Shown here piece by piece: positions 2,133 to 22,024 of a stretch of DNA of 22,024 bases. The stretch spans positions 1-22,024 of the IMG/VR virus record IMGVR_UViG_3300017771_000134. The stretch is one strand, 5' to 3'. Position numbers and translations under genes: made by a program. How positions within the stretch are numbered: the stretch's first letter is position 1; every line of letters starts with the position of its first letter. The stretch comes from a virus. The notes under the pieces were generated by a model. That model was not told where the DNA came from, did no database searches, and was given only the letters and a program-made list of their open reading frames with translations.

Positions 2133-3403
2133 TGAAAATAACCATACCGTATTCGCCAAGAGAGCAACAAGCTTATATACATGGCAAGCTAGATAAACAT
2201 AGATTTTCAGTTTTGTGCTGCCACAGGAGGTTTGGCAAAACGGTAATGTTAATCAATCATTTAATTAAATGTGCGATGACAAACAAAAATCATAATCCAC
2301 GATTTGCTTATCTTGCTCCGACTTATTCGCAAGCCAAAAAAATCGCTTTCGATTACTTAAAACATTACACCAGCAAAATACCTGGTACGAAGTATAACGA
2401 AACAGAGTTACGTTGTGATTTTATGAATGGCGCCAGGATCATGCTGTTGTCAGCAGAAAATCCTGATAGCTTAAGAGGAATTTATTTAGATGGTTGCGTA
2501 ATTGACGAGACTGCTCAAGTGAACGCAGCTGTTGTTGATGAAGTAATTAGACCAGCACTCTCTGACCGTAAAGGATGGTTATCGATGTGCGGAACGCCAA
2601 AAGGAATGAATAATCTTTTTTATGATTATTATCTCAAGGCTCAGCAAAACGATGACTGGTTTTTATATGTAGCCAAATCATCAGACACAAAGCTAATAGA
2701 CCAGGAAGAGCTAGATGCAGCGCTTCAAGTAATGGGTCAAGCTAAGTACAATCAAGAATTTGAATGCAGCTTTATAGGAAATATCACAGGATCTATTTAT
2801 GGGGATTTACTAAATAAATTAGAGAATGAACGAAGAATTACTAGAGTGCCTTATGATCCGTCTCATCCTGTTAATACCGCTTGGGATGTTGGTTTTAATG
2901 ATAGTACCGCTATTATTTTTTTCCAAGTTATTGGACATAGTCTTAACATTATTGACTTTGCTGAGGACCATAATAAAGCGTTTCCTTACTATGCTCAACT
3001 ACTCAAGGAAAAAGATTATGTCTATTTAAATCATTATGGACCACACGATCTTGAGCAAACCGATTTCGCTACTGGTAGAACTAAAAGAGAAGTTGCTTAC
3101 CAATTAGGATTAAGATTTAAAATAGCTAAGAAGCTTTCAGTCGAAGATGGCATCCACGCAGTTAAAATGCTGCTACCAAGATGTCAGATCGATGTAGATA
3201 ATTGTCAAAAATTAATAAACGCTCTTAGGCATTATCATCGTAAATATAATGATAAGTCTCGAGTGTACGCAACTAAACCTGTACACGATTGGTCTAGCCA
3301 TCCTTGCGATAGCTTTAGAACATTAGCAGTAGGTTTAGAAAAAGAAAAAATAACAACCATTAAAAATATGCAAAAGGAATATAAATATGAGTTCAATCTT
3401 TAA
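2132..3403 (+). CDS. terL: Terminase large subunit (packaging ATPase/nuclease)
   Basis: This is the motor that translocates DNA into the prohead and cuts the concatemer. The N-terminal ATPase shows Walker A at residues 30-37 (CHRRFGKT, the deviant R-x-FGKT form of viral terminases), Walker B with catalytic glutamate at about 121-126 (GCVIDE), and coupling motif III SMCGTPKG at 151-158. The C-terminal RNase H-like nuclease begins with AWDVGFNDST (D252 and D257 are candidate metal ligands), continues with HYGPHD near 305, and ends with SHPCDSFR, the usual final acidic motif. At 423 residues it is shorter than T7 gp19 and closer to Sf6/HK97-type enzymes. The ATG overlaps the upstream stop by one base, and the 3' end overlaps the next gene by 17 nt. 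Confidence 0.95.
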   Translation: MKITIPYSPREQQAYIHGKLDKHRFSVLCCHRRFGKTVMLINHLIKCAMTNKNHNPRFAYLAPTYSQAKKIAFDYLKHYTSKIPGTKYNETELRCDFMNGARIMLLSAENPDSLRGIYLDGCVIDETAQVNAAVVDEVIRPALSDRKGWLSMCGTPKGMNNLFYDYYLKAQQNDDWFLYVAKSSDTKLIDQEELDAALQVMGQAKYNQEFECSFIGNITGSIYGDLLNKLENERRITRVPYDPSHPVNTAWDVGFNDSTAIIFFQVIGHSLNIIDFAEDHNKAFPYYAQLLKEKDYVYLNHYGPHDLEQTDFATGRTKREVAYQLGLRFKIAKKLSVEDGIHAVKMLLPRCQIDVDNCQKLINALRHYHRKYNDKSRVYATKPVHDWSSHPCDSFRTLAVGLEKEKITTIKNMQKEYKYEFNL

Positions 3404-3614
3404 ACCTGACATACCAGCTCCACCTCAAATGGTAATGCCATCAGTGGCAGATGTACCAAGCGCAGAAGATAGCGCAAGAGCTGCGCAAGAAGCAGAAGAA
3501 ATGAGAAAAAGAAATAGAAACAGAAAAGGTCGTAGATCTACAATCTTAACTGACACTGATATTGGCGAAGTCGCTGATAACAACATCGCAAAGAAAACTT
3601 TGTTAGGAGGATAA
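3387..3614 (+). CDS. Small virion-type protein ending in KTLLGG (copy 1)
   Basis: This 75-residue protein has a proline-rich N terminus (MSSIFKPDIPAPPQM), a charged helical middle with many Arg/Lys, and a C-terminal block made of GRRSTILT, a glycine-containing linker and a final KKTLLGG. Short proteins with this plan (Pro-rich start, 'RRxTxLT', 'TLLGG' end) are known next to the portal gene in podoviruses. By position they correspond to T7 gp6.7/gp7.3, small virion proteins of the tail and portal region, although I infer this from location and general composition only. The ATG lies 17 nt inside terL with AGGA upstream. Its last codons encode the AGGAGG that serves the next gene. About 14 of 28 C-terminal residues match the third copy. 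Confidence 0.75.
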   Translation: MSSIFKPDIPAPPQMVMPSVADVPSAEDSARAAQEAEEMRKRNRNRKGRRSTILTDTDIGEVADNNIAKKTLLGG

Positions 3615-3904
3615 TGTCAACTACTGGAACAATGCAACGTAGGCTTAAAAGACCTGATCCTAGTTATGTTAGTGGAGTTAGTCCTATAGGTTTTGGACCA
3701 ACATATGAAAAAGATGCTGTTGCTGAATTAACAGATGCTAGAAGAATTTTTAAAGAAAAAACTGGCGGCAAATTAAGAAATGTAAAGACTGCAACAAATT
3801 ATCAAAAACTTAGCGAAGCAGAAAAAAAAAGATACAAAAAATTAAATCCTCAAGATTTTGAAGAGGATATGTCAGTTTCAAAAAAAACTTTATTAGGAGG
3901 ATAA
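3614..3904 (+). CDS. Small basic protein ending in KTLLGG (copy 2)
   Basis: This 96-residue basic protein starts at the ATG overlapping the previous stop (TAATG), with AGGAGG only 3 nt upstream. It shares the KKTLLGG ending with its two neighbours but lacks their GRRSTILT-type block. Its body instead reads PDPSYVSGVSPIGFGPTYEK, then a lysine-rich helical part (residues about 40-80, for example KLSEAEKKRYKKL) and an acidic FEEDM before the tail. I do not recognise the body. The shared ending suggests that it docks to the same partner as its neighbours, presumably at the portal or tail vertex, while the body does something different. It could be a chimera of an unrelated N terminus and the duplicated tail. 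Confidence 0.7.
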   Translation: MSTTGTMQRRLKRPDPSYVSGVSPIGFGPTYEKDAVAELTDARRIFKEKTGGKLRNVKTATNYQKLSEAEKKRYKKLNPQDFEEDMSVSKKTLLGG

Positions 3905-3905
3905 T

Positions 3906-4109
3906 ATGGGTGGATTTGTACCACAAAAAAGAAAAGCACCAGCACCTGTAGTCGTTGCACCTAAACCTACAACACCATCAGGACCAACAACGGTAGAGGC
4001 GGTTTACGATAAGTCAAAAAGAAGAGGTAGAAAAGCTACGCTTCTTACTTCATCAAAAGGCATTTCTAATGATGCAGAAATTCAATTAAAAACTTTATTA
4101 GGCGGTTAA
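3906..4109 (+). CDS. Small virion-type protein ending in KTLLGG (copy 3)
   Basis: This 67-residue protein has an Ala/Pro/Val-rich N-terminal half (PQKRKAPAPVVVAPKPTTPS), a basic stretch KSKRRGRKATLLTSSKG, and the ending LKTLLGG. It is a paralogue of copy 1: the GR-x-x-T-(I/L)-LT, central G, D-x-x-I and KTLLGG positions match. AGGAGG lies 5 nt upstream of its ATG, inside the tail codons of copy 2. Its own tail codons read GGC GGT, so the GG ending is kept although the AGGAGG is lost. The portal gene that follows starts at the overlapping TAATG. The role is probably a minor virion component near the portal, inferred from position. Confidence 0.75.
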   Translation: MGGFVPQKRKAPAPVVVAPKPTTPSGPTTVEAVYDKSKRRGRKATLLTSSKGISNDAEIQLKTLLGG

Positions 4110-5734
4110 TGCAAGATCAAGAATTAAGAAAACTATCAGCAGAACTTAAAACAAATCTTTCAAGATTAATGGAACAAAGATCTACTTGGGAAAGTCATTG
4201 GCAAGAATGTGCTGATTATGCTTTAACAAGAAAAGCTGAAGTTTCTAAAGAGAGAGCTAGAGGTGATAAAAGAAATACTTTAGTGTTCGATGCTACTGCA
4301 ATACACGCACTAGAATTACTTGCAGCTTCTTTACATGGTATGCTGACATCATCTGCGAATAGATGGTTTTCAATGCGTTTTAAAGAAAGTCTTTTAAATG
4401 AAGATGACGATGCAAGAGAGTGGTTAGAAAGTGCTTTAGATAAAATGTATTTAGCTTTTGCTAGATCTAATTTTCAACAAGAGATTTTTGAGAGTTATCA
4501 TGATTTAATTTGCTTTGGCACAGCATGTTTAATGATTGAAGAAGATAAAGACGATATTCTACGTTTCTCTGCTAGACACATAAAAGAATTATATATCCAA
4601 GAAAACAAAAAAGGTTTTGTAGATACTATTTATAGAAAATTTAAAATGCCAGCTCATGCAGCTGTAGATAAATTTGGATTAGAAAATTTAAGTAGAGACG
4701 TAAAAAGATTATTCGACAAAGATCCTTTACAAGATGTTGACTTCGTTCACGTTGTAAGACCAAGAACAATTTATAACGAGAGAAAACAAGATAAGTCTAA
4801 CATGCCATTTCAAAGTATCTACATGGAAGATCACACTGGACATGTCATATCTATTGGTGGTTTTAGAGAAATGCCTTATGTCATTCCAAGATATTTAAAA
4901 TCATCTACAGAGATCTACGGCAGATCACCAACGATGAATGCTCTACCTGATATTAAAGTATTAAATAAAATGGTTGAGAATGGTTTGAAGGCGGCAGCTA
5001 AACAAGTTGACCCACCTTTACTTGTTCCTGATGACAGTATGATTAGTCCAATCAGAATGGCTCCAGGTTCTTTAAATTATTATAGATCAGGATCAAGAGA
5101 TAGAATTGAGCCTTTAAATATAAATGCAAACACTGGTGTAACTTTAAATAACGAAAATCAAAGACGCTCAGCTATTGCAAAAATATTTCATGTTGACCAG
5201 TTACTTATTACTGAAAATAGAAATATGACAGCTACAGAAGTTCTTCAAAGAAATGAAGAGAAGATGAGAATACTTGGTCCAGTATTAGGAAGATTACAAT
5301 CTGAATTACTACAACCGATGATCTTAAGAGTATTTAACATCATGTTAAGAAATGGATTATTTGCTGAAGCTCCTGAGGTTCTTGCTAATCAAGAAGTAGA
5401 TATTGAATATGTATCACCAATGGCACTAGCACAAAAAGGACAAGAGCTACAAAATTTAATGAGAGGTTTAGAATTATTTGCACAGATCTCACCTTTAGCT
5501 CCAGTACAAGATTACATCGATGAAAACGGTTTAATAAAACAAATTATAAATATTTTAGGATTACCAGCTCGAATGATTAAATCTGACAAACAGGTTCAAG
5601 AATTACGAGAACAAAAAGCTGCAGCGCAACAAGAACAAATGCAAATGCAACAAGCAATGCAAGAAGCTCAAATAGCTAAAGACGCAGCTCCAATGGTTAA
5701 AGAAATAAATAATATTAATGGACCAGCAGAATAA
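4109..5734 (+). CDS. Head-tail connector (portal) protein, T7 gp8-like
   Basis: This forms the dodecameric ring at the capsid vertex through which DNA enters and leaves. The 541-residue length is essentially that of T7 gp8 (536). The N terminus has the family pattern of a long helix with RSTWESHWQECADYAL, then DATAIHALELLAASLHGMLTSSANRWFSM, the conserved stretch of podovirus connectors. A central part covers the wing (YRKFKMPAHAAVDKFG) and the stem region with IPRYLKSSTEIYGRSP. The C-terminal 45 residues are rich in Gln, Met and Ala (EQMQMQQAMQEAQ), a probable coiled coil at the crown. The ATG overlaps the previous stop by one base and has no strong ribosome-binding site, so translation probably depends on coupling. 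Confidence 0.95.
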   Translation: MQDQELRKLSAELKTNLSRLMEQRSTWESHWQECADYALTRKAEVSKERARGDKRNTLVFDATAIHALELLAASLHGMLTSSANRWFSMRFKESLLNEDDDAREWLESALDKMYLAFARSNFQQEIFESYHDLICFGTACLMIEEDKDDILRFSARHIKELYIQENKKGFVDTIYRKFKMPAHAAVDKFGLENLSRDVKRLFDKDPLQDVDFVHVVRPRTIYNERKQDKSNMPFQSIYMEDHTGHVISIGGFREMPYVIPRYLKSSTEIYGRSPTMNALPDIKVLNKMVENGLKAAAKQVDPPLLVPDDSMISPIRMAPGSLNYYRSGSRDRIEPLNINANTGVTLNNENQRRSAIAKIFHVDQLLITENRNMTATEVLQRNEEKMRILGPVLGRLQSELLQPMILRVFNIMLRNGLFAEAPEVLANQEVDIEYVSPMALAQKGQELQNLMRGLELFAQISPLAPVQDYIDENGLIKQIINILGLPARMIKSDKQVQELREQKAAAQQEQMQMQQAMQEAQIAKDAAPMVKEINNINGPAE

Positions 5735-17704: not shown

Positions 17705-18913
17705 TTGACTATATCTACAACTACAATCAAAAATAGCTACAGTGGAAACGGTTCTACAACTGTTTTTAACTATACTTTTAAAGTAACAGATCAAGACGAC
17801 ATTGAAGTTATAATAAGGAGTTCAGATGGTACGGAAACTACGAAAACGATTTCAACTCATTATAACGTCAGTGGCGTTGGTAATGCTAACGGAGGAAGTG
17901 TTACATTCACTAGCGGTAATGTTCCTACGGCTTCTGAAACAGTTGTTTTAAGAAGAGATACACCACAAACGCAAGGAGTAGATTTAATTGAAAACGATCC
18001 TCTTCCAGCGAATACTTTAGAAGATGCCTTAGATAAAGTAACTTCTATTACTCAAGAGCTTCAAGAAGAAAGCGATAGATCTATAAAGATTTCAAGAACT
18101 AATACGATGACATCGACTGAATTTACAGTTGATGCTACCAACAGAGCAAACAAACTATTATCATTTGATAGTTCAGGTGAAATATCTGTAGCTCAAGAGT
18201 TAGGAACTTTTAAAGGTAACTGGGCTGCCTCAACGACTTATGCTGTAAGAGATCTAGTTAAAGATACTTCTACTAATAATATTTTTATAGCTTTAACAGC
18301 TCATACATCTAGTGGATCTCAACCATTAACGACTAACACTGATAGTGCAAAATGGTCTTTGATTGTTGACGCTGCCTCAGCAACAACCTCTCAAACGGCT
18401 GCTGCTAGTTCTGCAACGGCTGCTGCAAGCTCTGCTACAGCTGCTGCTTCATCTGCATCGACAGCATCAGGTCATAAAGATACAGCAACAACTAAAGCTA
18501 GTGAGGCTGCATCATCTGCTACTGCGGCTGCATCATCTGCTACAGCTGCTGCAAGTTCAGCAACATCTGCGGCTGCATCTTTAGATAGTTTTGATGACAC
18601 ATATTTAGGATCTAAATCTTCAGCTCCATCTGTTGACAATGATGGAAATGCTTTAGCAACTGGTGCATTATATTTTAATTCATCTACAGGCGCTTTAAAT
18701 GTTTGGACAGGATCTGCATGGGTAGCAATACAAGCAGATACAGATGTCAAAGTTTCAGTATCATCGAATGATACAACACCTAACTTCTTACTTTCAAAAT
18801 TAACTGCTGGAACAAATATAAGCTTAGCAGAAACTAATGATGGCGGTAACGAAACAATAACAATAACCAACACTGGTGAAGATCCAACTGCACTAGCTAT
18901 AGCATTAGGATAA
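17705..18913 (+). CDS. Tail fibre, T7 gp17-type N-terminal domain
   Basis: The start is TTG 17705 with AGGA 7 nt upstream. Residues 1-150 match the T7 gp17 N-terminal attachment domain: GNGSTTVFNYTFKVTDQDDI, ETVVLRRDTPQTQGVDLIEN, and PANTLEDALDKVTSITQELQ with the helix that trimerises. An Ala/Ser heptad-like repeat (about residues 230-292) forms a rod. It is followed by YLGSKSSAPSVDNDGNALAT, then GALYFNSSTGALNVWTGSAW, a domain common to marine podovirus fibres, and a short beta end with TAGTNISLAETNDGGNETI. At 402 residues it lacks a large receptor-binding tip, so the genes downstream probably supply the distal adhesion parts. Confidence 0.88.
   Translation: MTISTTTIKNSYSGNGSTTVFNYTFKVTDQDDIEVIIRSSDGTETTKTISTHYNVSGVGNANGGSVTFTSGNVPTASETVVLRRDTPQTQGVDLIENDPLPANTLEDALDKVTSITQELQEESDRSIKISRTNTMTSTEFTVDATNRANKLLSFDSSGEISVAQELGTFKGNWAASTTYAVRDLVKDTSTNNIFIALTAHTSSGSQPLTTNTDSAKWSLIVDAASATTSQTAAASSATAAASSATAAASSASTASGHKDTATTKASEAASSATAAASSATAAASSATSAAASLDSFDDTYLGSKSSAPSVDNDGNALATGALYFNSSTGALNVWTGSAWVAIQADTDVKVSVSSNDTTPNFLLSKLTAGTNISLAETNDGGNETITITNTGEDPTALAIALG
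18395..18580 (+). repeat. Ala/Ser heptad-like coding repeat in the fibre
   Basis: Two blocks of a seven-residue unit TAAASSA encode the rod of the fibre: three units before a GHKDTATTKASE break and about three after. Codons vary between units (ACG/ACA for Thr, AGT/AGC/TCA for Ser), so the protein pattern is kept while the DNA has drifted. Confidence 0.8.
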
Positions 18914-18930: not shown

Positions 18931-19296
18931 ATGGCAAACACGTTTAAAGCAATCAACTTCGCAGCAGAGCCAGCATCAGCTGGAACACCTTATGTGATGT
19001 ACACAGCAGCTGGAAGTACGACTACAGTAGTTCTAGGTCTTGTATTGGCTAACATTCATACAACAGCAGTAACAGCTGAAGTAGAACACGTTAGTACAAC
19101 ATCAAATAGAGGTGGAGCAAACAATGTTGCTAATGGTACATCGTTCTTAGTTAAAGATGTAACTATTCCAACAGGAAGCTCATTAGAAGTTTTATCAGGA
19201 TCTAAAGTAATTTTAGAAACTGGCGACAAAATTCAAATCGATTGTTCAGTAGCTGATAAGCTTTCAGGCACATTATCAGTAATGGAAATCACATAA
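18931..19296 (+). CDS. Small beta-rich virion protein of the fibre region
   Basis: This 121-residue protein has alternating hydrophobic strands: GTPYVMYTAAGSTTTVVLGL, VLANIHTTAVTAEVEHV, then TSFLVKDVTIPTGSSLEVLS, GSKVILETGDKIQIDC and a terminal LSGTLSVMEIT. The pattern (LxLaNxxxxxxxvxv ... vPxGssLevlxGxKiVLexGDxi ... lSvmEI) is a recurrent marine phage structural domain, usually beside fibre or neck genes. The strands suggest a compact beta-sandwich or jelly-roll that may cap or attach to the fibre. AGGAG lies 7 nt upstream of the ATG. The specific function is not shown. Confidence 0.7.
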   Translation: MANTFKAINFAAEPASAGTPYVMYTAAGSTTTVVLGLVLANIHTTAVTAEVEHVSTTSNRGGANNVANGTSFLVKDVTIPTGSSLEVLSGSKVILETGDKIQIDCSVADKLSGTLSVMEIT

Positions 19297-19315: not shown

Positions 19316-20056
19316 ATGGGTTACATAGGTAAAAAACCGACAGATGCACCATTAACATCAAGCGACATTGCTGATGGTATTATCTCTACTGCTGATTTAG
19401 CTAACACAGCTGTAACAGGAGCAAAGGTAAATACAGATGTTATTTCTGCACAGACAGCACTAGCGACAGAACCAGCTGATACAGATGAATTTCTAGTATC
19501 GGATGCTGGAGTAATTAAAAGAATTGATTACAGTTTAATTAAAGGTGGTGGTACTCATGTTTTACTTTCTACAACAACAGCAAGTGATTCAGCTAATATA
19601 AGTATCACTTCAAATATTGACAGCACATATAATACTTACATGCTAGAGTTTGTAAATATAAAAGCAGCAGATAATGCTCAAACATTATTTATGAGAATGG
19701 CAGAAGGTGGTTCTTTTGTTACTGGATCATTTTATGATTATGGTTTTAGAAGACTTCAATCTAATGCAGCTTCTGAGACACAAGGTGAAAACCAAACTAA
19801 AATAGAACTATTTAATGTTTATTCTAATGCTTCTAATGCAAATTTAAATGGAAGAATGTTTTTGTATTCACCATCAAGTAGCACTTTTGATACATACGTT
19901 GATTTTAGACTAACAGGTCAAATAGATGGTGACCATCAAATGACTACTGTTGGTGGTGGAAGAAGTGAAAGAGCTGGTGCTGTAGATGGAGTACAATTTC
20001 TTTTTACAACTGGTAATATTTCATCAGGATCAATTAAACTTTACGGAGTAGTATAA
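19316..20056 (+). CDS. Tail fibre or adhesin protein with LYGV module (copy A)
   Basis: This 246-residue protein starts with MGYIGKKPTDAPLTSSDIAD, then GIISTADLANTAVTGAKV, an N-terminal attachment segment typical of phage fibre proteins. From residue about 83 it carries a beta-rich module: LLSTTTASDSANISITS, IDSTYNTYMLEFVNI, a variable middle, and VDGVQFLFTTGNISSGSIKL ending in YGVV. The same module forms nearly all of the gene at 21179 and of the truncated gene at 21771. Such modules are probable carbohydrate-binding or receptor-binding tips. The GGAG needed by the following gene lies in the last codons of this one (20045-20048), so the two are coupled. Confidence 0.8.
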   Translation: MGYIGKKPTDAPLTSSDIADGIISTADLANTAVTGAKVNTDVISAQTALATEPADTDEFLVSDAGVIKRIDYSLIKGGGTHVLLSTTTASDSANISITSNIDSTYNTYMLEFVNIKAADNAQTLFMRMAEGGSFVTGSFYDYGFRRLQSNAASETQGENQTKIELFNVYSNASNANLNGRMFLYSPSSSTFDTYVDFRLTGQIDGDHQMTTVGGGRSERAGAVDGVQFLFTTGNISSGSIKLYGVV

Positions 20057-20057
20057 T

Positions 20058-20873
20058 ATGTATATAGGCAAACAACCAACAATAGGAAACTTTCAAGTCT
20101 GCGATGCTATTAGTGTAGTTAATGGTCAAGCTGCATACACGATGCAAGTATCATCTGTTAATGTAGTACCTGAAACAGCTAACCATATGTTGGTATCGCT
20201 GAACGGAATTTTACAGCGACCAGGAAGTTCATTTACTGTATCAGGTTCAACTATTACATTTGCATCTAACCTTGTAACAGGTGATGTGATAAACTTTATT
20301 CATATACTAGGATCAGTTCTTGATCTTGGTGTACCATCAGACAGTACAGTATCTCTTGCTAAACTAACAGCAACAGGAACTAAAGATGCTACAACTTTTT
20401 TAAGAGGTGATAATACATTTGCAGCACCTAGTGGTGGTAAAGTCTTACAAGTTGTATCAACAGCAAAAACAGATACTTTTAGTACAACAAATACTTATTC
20501 ATCAGGTGGCTTTGCAGATATTACAGGTTTAAGTGTAGCTATAACTCCATCTGCTACGTCTAGTAAAGTTTTAGTTTTAGTTCAAATATATAATTCTGTA
20601 TCTAGCAATACTCAATTTTTTAATTTAATTAGAGGTTCAACAAATTTATTACAACCTGGAAGTGGTTCATTAAAAGCAACAATAGCCAATGATCATAATA
20701 TGGGTAATGTTCCAATTACTTTTTTAGATAGTCCAAGTTCAACAAGTGCCACAACTTATAAAGTAGCAACTTGTAGAGAAGGTGCTGGTACAGTTTATAT
20801 AAATCAACGATCAGATGGATTAACTTCTCATCTTGGAAGTTCAACAATAACAGCAATAGAGATAGGAGCATAA
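20058..20873 (+). CDS. Tail fibre protein (GTKDATTFLRGDNTF type)
   Basis: This 271-residue protein has an N-terminal domain YIGKQPTIGNFQVCDAISVV, a beta-rich segment with GILQRPGSSFTVSGSTITFA, then the junction TGTKDATTFLRGDNTFAAPS that commonly links phage fibre shafts and tips. The C-terminal module from KVLQVVSTAKTDTFS through FADITGLSVAITPSATSSKV to SSTITAIEIGA is another frequent marine phage tip domain and differs from the LYGV module of the neighbours. It is probably one of several alternative or combined receptor-binding proteins. The start is 1 nt after the previous stop, and the end overlaps the next gene by one base. Confidence 0.8.
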   Translation: MYIGKQPTIGNFQVCDAISVVNGQAAYTMQVSSVNVVPETANHMLVSLNGILQRPGSSFTVSGSTITFASNLVTGDVINFIHILGSVLDLGVPSDSTVSLAKLTATGTKDATTFLRGDNTFAAPSGGKVLQVVSTAKTDTFSTTNTYSSGGFADITGLSVAITPSATSSKVLVLVQIYNSVSSNTQFFNLIRGSTNLLQPGSGSLKATIANDHNMGNVPITFLDSPSSTSATTYKVATCREGAGTVYINQRSDGLTSHLGSSTITAIEIGA

Positions 20874-21175
20874 TGGTAGATTTATCAACAGCAATATTAG
20901 CAATTAATTCTGAAGCACAATTTTCAATTAATGGTGAAGATGTAAATCAAATTACTTGGTATAACAATACAACACCTATTTCTGTAAATGATATAGAAGC
21001 AAAACAAGCAGAACTACAATCTGACTATGATGCTAAACAATATCAAAGAGATAGAGAAGTTGCTTATCCTACAATTCAAGAACAACTTGATATGCAGTAT
21101 TGGGATAATGTTAATGGTACTACAACTTGGAAAGACGCAATAGCTAAAGTAAAATCAGACAATCCAAAGGAGTAA
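20873..21175 (+). CDS. XkdW-like / fibre assembly-type small protein
   Basis: This 100-residue acidic protein has an N-terminal strand part (DLSTAILAINSEAQFSINGE), VNQITWYNNTTPISVNDIEA, then a long helix KQAELQSDYDAKQYQRDREV and the ending AYPTIQEQLDMQYWDNVNGT, TTWKDAIAKVKSDNPK. The 'R-x-x-x-YP-x-I-x-x-QLD-x-x-YW' segment is characteristic of small proteins next to phage fibre genes, resembling XkdW and tail-fibre-assembly chaperones. The likely role is folding or attachment of the neighbouring fibre proteins. The start overlaps the previous stop (TAATG) with AGGAG upstream. Family naming is by resemblance. Confidence 0.7.
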   Translation: MVDLSTAILAINSEAQFSINGEDVNQITWYNNTTPISVNDIEAKQAELQSDYDAKQYQRDREVAYPTIQEQLDMQYWDNVNGTTTWKDAIAKVKSDNPKE

Positions 21176-21178
21176 TCA

Positions 21179-21784
21179 ATGGCTCTTAATTTTGCTAACA
21201 ACAATTCCTTATCATCAATCACAGCTTTACCAGCTTCAATATCAGGTGGTGGATTAAATTTAATATCTACACAGACAGCTAGTAGTAGTGCCAATTTATC
21301 TTTTACAAGTGGAATAGATAGCACTTACAAAGAGTATGTATTTAAATGGATAAATATACATCCAGCTACAAATAATGTGGAATGGACATTAAATTTTAGA
21401 GATGGAAGTTCAGCTTTTGATGCAACAAAAACAACAACCAGTTTTCTTGCCAATCATACCGAAGCTGATGGCGGTGCAAGTATATCTTACAGCACAGGAT
21501 TAGATTTAGCACAAGCCACAGGTTATATAAGTTTAAATGAAAATACTTATGGAACTGATGCTGATGCTTCTTTATGTGGTGAAATGCATTTATTTGCTCC
21601 ATCTGATACAACTTTTGTAAAACATTTTTTAATTAGAAATACTCATATGGCAACAAATCCTGGAAGTAGGCAAGATTATACAGCTGGATATTGCAATGTT
21701 ACTGCAGCTATTGATGGTGTTGATTTTAAATTTTCATCAGGAAATATAGATAGTGGAGTTATAAAATTATATGGCGTTAGTTAA
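21179..21784 (+). CDS. Adhesin/fibre accessory with LYGV module (copy B)
   Basis: This 201-residue protein consists of a short N terminus (MALNFANNNSLSSITALPAS) and one complete copy of the module seen at the end of the gene at 19316: LISTQTASSSANLSFTS, IDSTYKEYVFKWINI, a variable middle about 100 residues long, then IDGVDFKFSSGNIDSGVIKL and YGVS. It lacks the phage-attachment N terminus of copy A, so it may bind another fibre protein. AGGAG stands 6 nt before the ATG. The next paralogue begins inside its last codons. The role is inferred as receptor-binding; no enzyme motif is seen. Confidence 0.75.
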   Translation: MALNFANNNSLSSITALPASISGGGLNLISTQTASSSANLSFTSGIDSTYKEYVFKWINIHPATNNVEWTLNFRDGSSAFDATKTTTSFLANHTEADGGASISYSTGLDLAQATGYISLNENTYGTDADASLCGEMHLFAPSDTTFVKHFLIRNTHMATNPGSRQDYTAGYCNVTAAIDGVDFKFSSGNIDSGVIKLYGVS

Positions 21785-22024
21785 ATACAATAACAATTCT
21801 ATAAGTGCAGTTACAGCAGCAGCTAGTATTCCTAGTGGTGCTTTAAATTTAATTACCACAAACACTATTACATCAGGAGTATCGTCATCTTCTTTTACTT
21901 CTAATATTAATAGCACATACGATACTTATTTATTTAAGTTTATAAATATGCACCCAGCAACAGACGAAGCTGATTTTACTTTTAATGGTTCAACAGATGG
22001 CGGTTCTAATTACAACACTACTAA
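21771..22024 (+). CDS. Adhesin/fibre accessory with LYGV module (copy C), 3' end outside window
   Basis: ATG 21771 overlaps the end of the previous gene by 14 nt in another frame, and the frame is open to the window edge, so the gene is truncated here. The 84 visible residues, beginning MALVKYNNNSISAVTAAASI, are clearly paralogous to copy B: shared MAL, NNNSISAV/NNNSLSSI, LNLI(T/S)T, SFTS, (N/D)STY-x-x-Y-x-FK-(F/W)-IN, HPAT. The variable part starts near residue 68. GGAG at 21754-21757 is 13 nt upstream, rather far, so coupling from the preceding gene is probable. Confidence 0.8.
   Translation, partial: MALVKYNNNSISAVTAAASIPSGALNLITTNTITSGVSSSSFTSNINSTYDTYLFKFINMHPATDEADFTFNGSTDGGSNYNTT

Follow-up and report, generated by a model that had tools for sequence, protein, structure and literature searches.

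The right end of a 22,024-nucleotide stretch of viral DNA (IMG/VR record IMGVR_UViG_3300017771_000134, positions 1 to 22,024; hereafter the window) carries three genes that share a module named here for its terminal LYGV motif, and two of them open a gene triplet, A, B and C, that is the subject of this analysis. Genes are designated by their first position. The original prediction, made from the sequence alone, had placed the module in the C-terminal part of gene 19316, in nearly all of gene 21179 and at the start of gene 21771, and all three indeed match PHROG 14820, a family of unknown function (gene 19316 residues 75-245, E 3.2e-20; gene 21179 residues 1-201, family positions 1-206 of 206, E 1.6e-77; gene 21771, cut by the window edge, residues 1-84, E 5e-25). 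A hidden Markov model (HMM) of our own places three copies (Table 1), and tblastn with gene 21179 as query located those three places in the record and no fourth.

Genes 21179 and 21771 are of a short type, a peptide of about 19 residues followed by the module, and correspond to gene A and a cut gene B. Gene 19316 belongs to another type with a long stem and an anchor of its own, and its linker (..ADTDEFLVSDAGVIKRIDYSLIKGG) is found again in the stem genes of further loci. The array had been expected to continue past the window edge, and in longer relatives (e.g. L002, with an A gene 90% identical) a complete B is followed by C; it is not an open-ended repeat, however, but comes in threes. Both the window and the right end of contig L001, whose A gene is 100% identical, break off within gene B, probably due to repeats or population variety.

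Table 1. Coordinates of features in the window.
Feature	Position	Strand	Remarks
Tail fibre gene, T7-type N-terminus	17705..18913	+	Matches tail protein families PHROG 13893/1640 (E 4.2e-35 and 1.7e-34)
Small gene separating the tail fibre gene from the tip genes	18931..19296	+	PHROG 1276
Stem gene with LYGV tip	19316..20056	+	N-terminal ~74 residues are stem/linker (ADTDEFLVSDAGVIKRIDYSLIKGG type)
LYGV module copy 1, tip of stem gene 19316	19538..20050	+	Own HMM 3-183 of 183; tblastn E 1.7e-22
Second stem gene, predicted TNF-like tip in place of LYGV module	20058..20873	+	Conserved anchor; tip residues ~126-271 (20433-20870)
Small gene between stem genes and triplet	20873..21175	+	PHROG 9114, unknown function, E 3.8e-29
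Triplet gene A, complete	21179..21784	+	Residues 1-18 are a position-specific N-terminal peptide (MALNFANNNSLSSITALP)
LYGV module copy 2, gene A	21233..21778	+	Own HMM
Codons 51-52 of gene A (K E)	21329..21334	+	Proposed face toward B residues 31/54/56/196, from co-variation
Variable middle of gene A	21365..21676	+	Residues 63-166; segment that relatives swap among their A, B and C genes
Triplet gene B, cut by window edge	21771..22024	+	PHROG 14820, HMM
A/B overlap, 14 bases	21771..21784	+	A terminates in YGVS-stop; the same bases, in a different frame, begin B (MALVK)
LYGV module copy 3, gene B	21822..22022	+	Own HMM, model positions 2-67 of 183

Short module genes were compared across 417 loci collected by eight viral scans and one genome scan, from phage records and from the window itself. 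Before counting, 129 loci were dropped because their full module was identical to that of a retained locus or because they were pieces of the window, leaving 288 distinct loci. The scans were seeded with family genes and contributed at most their best 80 each, so that the sample is not random, but they would have retained any run that lacked a member. With a gap of up to 250 bases allowed and stem patterns set apart, 178 runs of short genes were bounded on both sides: 155 were of three genes, 18 of six, one of five (L101) and four of one, with none of two, four, seven or more. Three consecutive paralogous genes are thus kept together in 173 of the 178 bounded runs, which hold three or six genes, a rule that is new in this analysis. 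When the first genes were clustered at 70% identity, runs of three occurred in 138 and runs of six in 13 of 152 clusters; at 60% identity the figures were 16 and 2 of 21. An earlier, smaller count had given 100 runs of three, 17 of six, one of two and eight of one, where the two-gene run and several of the singles were in reality a triplet with a frameshift, one with wide spacing and a stem gene, cases that the rule used here accommodates. Nine-gene arrays (3+6) were seen in L249, L250 and L251, their three triplets bearing three different N-terminal types. The three-gene run also spans different phage families, being found in both HTVC010P (unclassified Caudoviricetes) and HTVC019P (Autographiviridae).

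The four single-gene runs were L388, L267, L085 and L084; in L085 the module belongs to a fused protein with 168 residues before it, and the L267 single adjoins a triplet. L084 (positions 4938-5534) is from Lederberg EXVC029P, a SAR11 phage in culture that has just one short module gene and is possibly a homotrimeric ancestor and a natural control; a scan seeded with Lederberg yielded two relatives only. The five short genes of L101 (192-3741) are A, B, a C/A-like chimera, B and C, an order that suggests an array of six reduced by one through C-A recombination, or else an assembly artefact. Modules also occur in bins labelled Pelagibacteraceae, Pelagibacter, Roseovarius, Campylobacteraceae, Flavobacteriaceae and Rhodospirillaceae (L172-L177), with full triplets in L172, L173, L175 and L176; these are probably phage contigs within the bins, or infected cells.

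Position within the triplet predicts kinship. The tree of 42 distinct triplets needs only 12 label changes, whereas shuffling the labels within loci gives a mean of 59.5 and a minimum of 47, and A, B and C are therefore separate orthologous classes of paralogues. The classes begin with MALNFANNNSLSAIT (A), MALVKYNNNSISAVT (B) and MSIIKLNNRAVKDAT (C), and the A and B genes overlap in 161 of 168 scored triplets with NNNS-type N-termini. Other triplets have unrelated N-termini (NFNS..VTP; Y..IKYN; ISNGT; NNITTGG; LSKI; SGIIAQN). By pattern, one N-terminal type runs across all three genes in 235 of 259 triplets. Inspection by eye of the remaining 24 left L061 and L142 (two NFNS and one NNNS each) as the only clear mixtures, the other 22 being pattern misses or having cut or broken starts. 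When class HMMs trained on NNNS modules were applied to triplets of other N-terminal families, one member of each class was recovered in 31 of 42 NFNS triplets (null 8.9) and in 8 of 14 IKYN triplets (null 2.6), where the order is reversed to C-B-A.

The ends of the module had been described as conserved and its middle as variable, and this holds quantitatively: between loci, identity within a class is 0.64-0.71 at the 5′ edge and 0.67 at the 3′ edge, against 0.43-0.45 in the middle (residues 63-166). Between classes the middles are 43-44% identical, as high as within a class (43-45%), and class is shared with the nearest relative from another locus by 639 of 645 5′ edges but by only 360 of 645 middles. 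Comparison with metagenomic variants, suggested earlier as a check for recombination within the array, uncovered 34 cross-class pairs, from 47 loci, with middles at least 80% identical; their middle DNA is 79-95% identical, against 41-71% for residues 20-45. Gene B of L003 and gene C of L233, for example, are 95% identical across the middle and 54% ahead of it. Middles therefore pass among A, B and C genes. Gene conversion that homogenises the A, B and C genes of one genome was considered and rejected: middles within a triplet are 0.445 identical, against 0.439 to other loci, and none of the 645 pairs within triplets attains 0.75.

Strictly understood, diversifying selection, part of the earlier interpretation, was not supported. 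Across 132 independent close pairs the ratio of nonsynonymous to synonymous substitution rates (dN/dS) was 0.41 for the middle and 0.23 and 0.17 for the edges, so the middle evolves faster and is on average not positively selected. The rest of that interpretation, namely a beta-rich tip with conserved edges around a variable middle, in a recombining array that extends past the window, was upheld. What it missed is that the conserved ends look like a subunit interface as well as a scaffold.

An AlphaFold2 model of gene 21179, built from 110 sequences, agrees with the beta-rich prediction: it is a sandwich of nearly all beta structure (mean predicted local distance difference test score, pLDDT, 87.3) in which residues 1-20 are uncertain. 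Different folds for the three copies are very unlikely, because they share a family at E 1e-19 or better. Foldseek found no match to the model in the PDB at E 0.001, with 4-1BBL and RANKL among the weak ones, and a sequence search for solved relatives gave none at E up to 10. By structure comparison a GH32 sandwich ranked best (Z 9.2), followed by galectins (7-8), against a background of 7-8 for models that lack a clear match, and no C1q or TNF structure was among the 50 matches listed. We take a galectin/ConA-like lectin sandwich as no more than a lead for the LYGV module, since the PDB scores lie near background. Among viral structures the model had 112 matches at E 0.001, some named tail fibre, Stf repeat or collagen triple helix; collagen-like and Stf-like phage fibres are trimeric.

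Gene 20058, which the original prediction passed over, has an N-terminal anchor unlike that of gene 19316 and no LYGV module. Its model (12 sequences; mean pLDDT 69.5 overall, tip blocks mostly 80-93 with some lower) has a tip that resembles the C-terminal domain of Pgp3 (Z 16.0, 2.2 A over 133), TNF-like lectins (Z 14-15; PLTL Z 14.7, 1.8 A over 121) and C1q (Z ~10), and the tip is accordingly predicted to be a TNF-like lectin/Pgp3-type domain of the C1q/TNF fold. Classified by end pattern, 161 genes with this anchor at distinct loci comprise 64 with LYGV, 15 with TNF-like, 21 with FIRLGDT, 7 with C1q-like and 54 with other endings; because one anchor carries all of these, the anchor slot swaps whole tips.

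Co-variation between neighbouring chains was analysed by mean-field direct-coupling analysis (DCA) of 245 side-by-side triplets with 150 columns per chain; the other triplets of the 259 were two lacking a usable alignment or members of N-terminal families of unclear order. The mean of the top five couplings was 10.7 standard deviations for A-B, 12.0 for B-C and 6.5 for C-A, against 11.5-12.0 within chains. The top pairs join the DSTYKEY turn (residues 48-52) of one chain to residues 27-31, 54-58 and 194-200 of the next, along with residues 24-28 mutually. Co-change, counted on a tree built without the tested columns, occurred at the same sites: A 51/52 with B 31/54/56, and B 51/52 with C 31/56/194/196. 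For A52-B56, 16 branches showed it where 4.5 were expected, which ranks second among 22,500 A-B pairs, the typical switch being from E to another residue in A together with K to E in B; corresponding values were 10 vs 1.6 for B51-C31, 9 vs 1.9 for B52-C196 and 14 vs 4.6 for A51-B54. Summed over {51,52} x {28,31,54,56,194,196}, co-change reached 114 vs 46.5 expected from A to B, 85 vs 21.9 from B to C and 8 vs 1.5 from C to A. In the reverse direction the sums were 66 vs 58.8 (A to C), 14 vs 10.6 (B to A) and 7 vs 2.5 (C to B); in the same chain, B gave 17 vs 17.3 and C 2 vs 3.1.

The A-B or B-C mean was never reached by matched random column sets in 20,000 draws, and the key pairs repeat in both halves of the tree (A52-B56 9 vs 2.7 and 7 vs 2.0). 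Top-20 lists transferred between the halves with mean z of 0.10/0.72 for A-B, which is weak, 0.99/1.19 for B-C and 0.24/0.18 for C-A. Linkage does not explain the co-change, because residues 100-200 of A, which are closer to B on the DNA, give a mean z of -0.05. Charge-pair sums for 51-31 and 52-194 in the forward direction showed no excess over expectation. Residue composition in the 245 triplets is class-specific: residue 52 is E in 188 A and 242 C chains and I, T or V in 242 B chains; residue 56 is K in 212 A and 195 B chains and T, I, Y or F in C; and residue 196 is K in 237 A and 240 B chains and C, T, D or S in C. In a ring A-B-C-A, A52 E would lie opposite B56 K, C52 E opposite A56/A196 K, and B52 I/T/V opposite the non-K residues C56/C196. 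This ring is favoured over same-chain and reverse arrangements because it alone sets every E against K.

On these sequence-based results we think it fairly probable that A, B and C are homologous, specialised subunits of one heterotrimeric, lectin-like, receptor-binding tail tip of a SAR11 podovirus. We are evenly divided on the fuller proposal of an obligate A-B-C heterotrimer, held together by conserved, class-specific edges, whose binding faces are interchangeable cassettes that recombine across the three slots, across as many as three triplets in one genome and across unrelated phage families. From the co-variation we infer contacts between the A, B and C subunits; a closed 1:1:1 trimer, its location on the tail, its binding to a host receptor and a sugar ligand are likewise proposed. 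In such a tip the short N-terminal peptide of each subunit would serve as a dock, the three peptides docking together. The conserved edge strands and turns would form the subunit interfaces, with the TYKEY turn abutting the next chain at its first, third and last strands, and would close the ring of three, leaving the variable middles outward to contact the host surface, presumably by binding carbohydrate. Overlap of the A and B genes may favour equal amounts of the two proteins. The conserved edges would also act as recombination handles by which middles move between slots and phages, one face being replaced at a time; as recombination would fall in edges conserved for the trimer, new combinations of three faces could arise without breaking it.

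The classes, the position-specific N-termini and the rule of three would also be accounted for by three separate homotrimers of A, B and C docked side by side, with three receptors or contact points needed, and the single-gene relative in Lederberg must be a homo-oligomer or a monomer. Neighbouring proteins nonetheless co-change, A-B and B-C at the same sites, and homotrimers would set B52 (I/T/V) against B56/B196 (K) and C52 (E) against C56/C196 (T/C/D); we regard this arrangement as unlikely. A stack or chain with A-B and B-C contacts and no C-A contact would fit the strong co-change at the first two interfaces, C-A being hardly testable, but the faces that it would leave free hardly vary (C51 is K in 241 and C52 is E in 242 of 245; A56 is K in 212 and A196 in 237), as if they met, and we give it only a slim chance. 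It seems about equally improbable that the triplet serves the virion in some way other than receptor binding, for instance as a head decoration or tail cap, and that its middle is variable on some other account. Such a role would accord with PHROG 14820 having no assigned function, but the triplet genes come after the tail fibre gene, the module also tips stem genes whose anchor elsewhere bears TNF-like or C1q-like tips, and the strong viral structure matches include fibre proteins.

Several observations weigh against the heterotrimer. The rule of three has exceptions in L101 (five genes), L267 (3+1) and Lederberg L084 (one gene), and one member of each class was not significantly recovered in ISNG (3/13), NNITTGG (1/6), LSKIxA (0/4) or GIIAQN (1/3) triplets. 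The co-varying sites were chosen from the data on which they were scored, and co-change at these sites is also raised within the A chain (59 vs 28.5). Handedness of the couplings over the whole matrix does not favour the expected hand and gives no discrimination; at held-out interfaces the same direction exceeded the reverse in 5 of 6 cases by DCA, 2 of 6 by mutual information and 4 of 6 by co-change. The C-to-A contact is barely tested by co-variation because C51 and C52 hardly vary.

The globular head of complement C1q, in which paralogous A, B and C chains form one heterotrimeric recognition head, offers a functional comparison only: the best listed matches of the LYGV module are GH32 and galectin sandwiches, and C1q-like structures match gene 20058 and not the module in its listed matches. 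A parallel in gene arrangement is the DSLV2 virophage, for which the excerpted text of PMC12724248 describes three consecutive tail genes whose products form a 1:1:1 heterotrimer that binds the cell surface. That tail is related to T4 gp37 needle tips and belongs to another virus group, and the same excerpt describes no cassette exchange between slots, whereas LYGV triplets exchange their middles. In HTVC010P-like phages, C1q-type genes near the tail fibre under-recruit in a metavirome (Mizuno et al. 2014, PMC3909814, as excerpted). Those host-recognition genes of metaviromic islands resemble the genes here in their position near the tail fibre, conserved N-terminus and variable tip, but as far as the excerpt describes them they are single genes, unlike the triplet, and would thus correspond better to gene 20058. 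In the excerpt of the Skadi paper (PMC10504331), a lectin-domain gene is described within a variable region. A literature search, judged from titles and abstract openings, gave nothing on triplets or heterotrimers in pelagiphages.

Three adjacent module genes of the same family are present in the Pelagibacter phages HTVC010P (AGE60300-302), HTVC019P (AGE60622-624) and HTVC034P (gp37-35), where they are annotated merely as hypothetical proteins; the A, B and C N-termini are recognisable in the first two. Few known viruses are as abundant as the HTVC010P-type phages, and to our knowledge it has not been established how they recognise SAR11, the most common bacteria of the ocean. If the reading is correct, exchangeable faces on a heterotrimeric tip would account for a large binding repertoire from a small genome. 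The reading points to three testable genes in cultured phages and yields a checkable prediction of residue contacts among their three proteins.

Whole-window megablast matched solely Pelagibacter phages (9 records, led by HTVC028P, HTVC035P and HTVC010P); HTVC028P, the best, covered 12% of the window at 78% identity and every other record at most 12%. By these matches the window is identified as a fragment of an HTVC010P-type pelagiphage, a podovirus of SAR11 (Pelagibacter). Downstream of the tail fibre gene 17705, residues 1-132 of which match the N-terminus of a solved tailspike, lie small gene 18931 and then five more genes up to the window edge. The HTVC010P gene in the position equivalent to 18931 is annotated 'virion structural protein', and gene 20873 presumably resembles XkdW/assembly-type small proteins. 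Elsewhere in the window, at 3387-4109, a KTLLGG tag ends each of three adjacent small genes.

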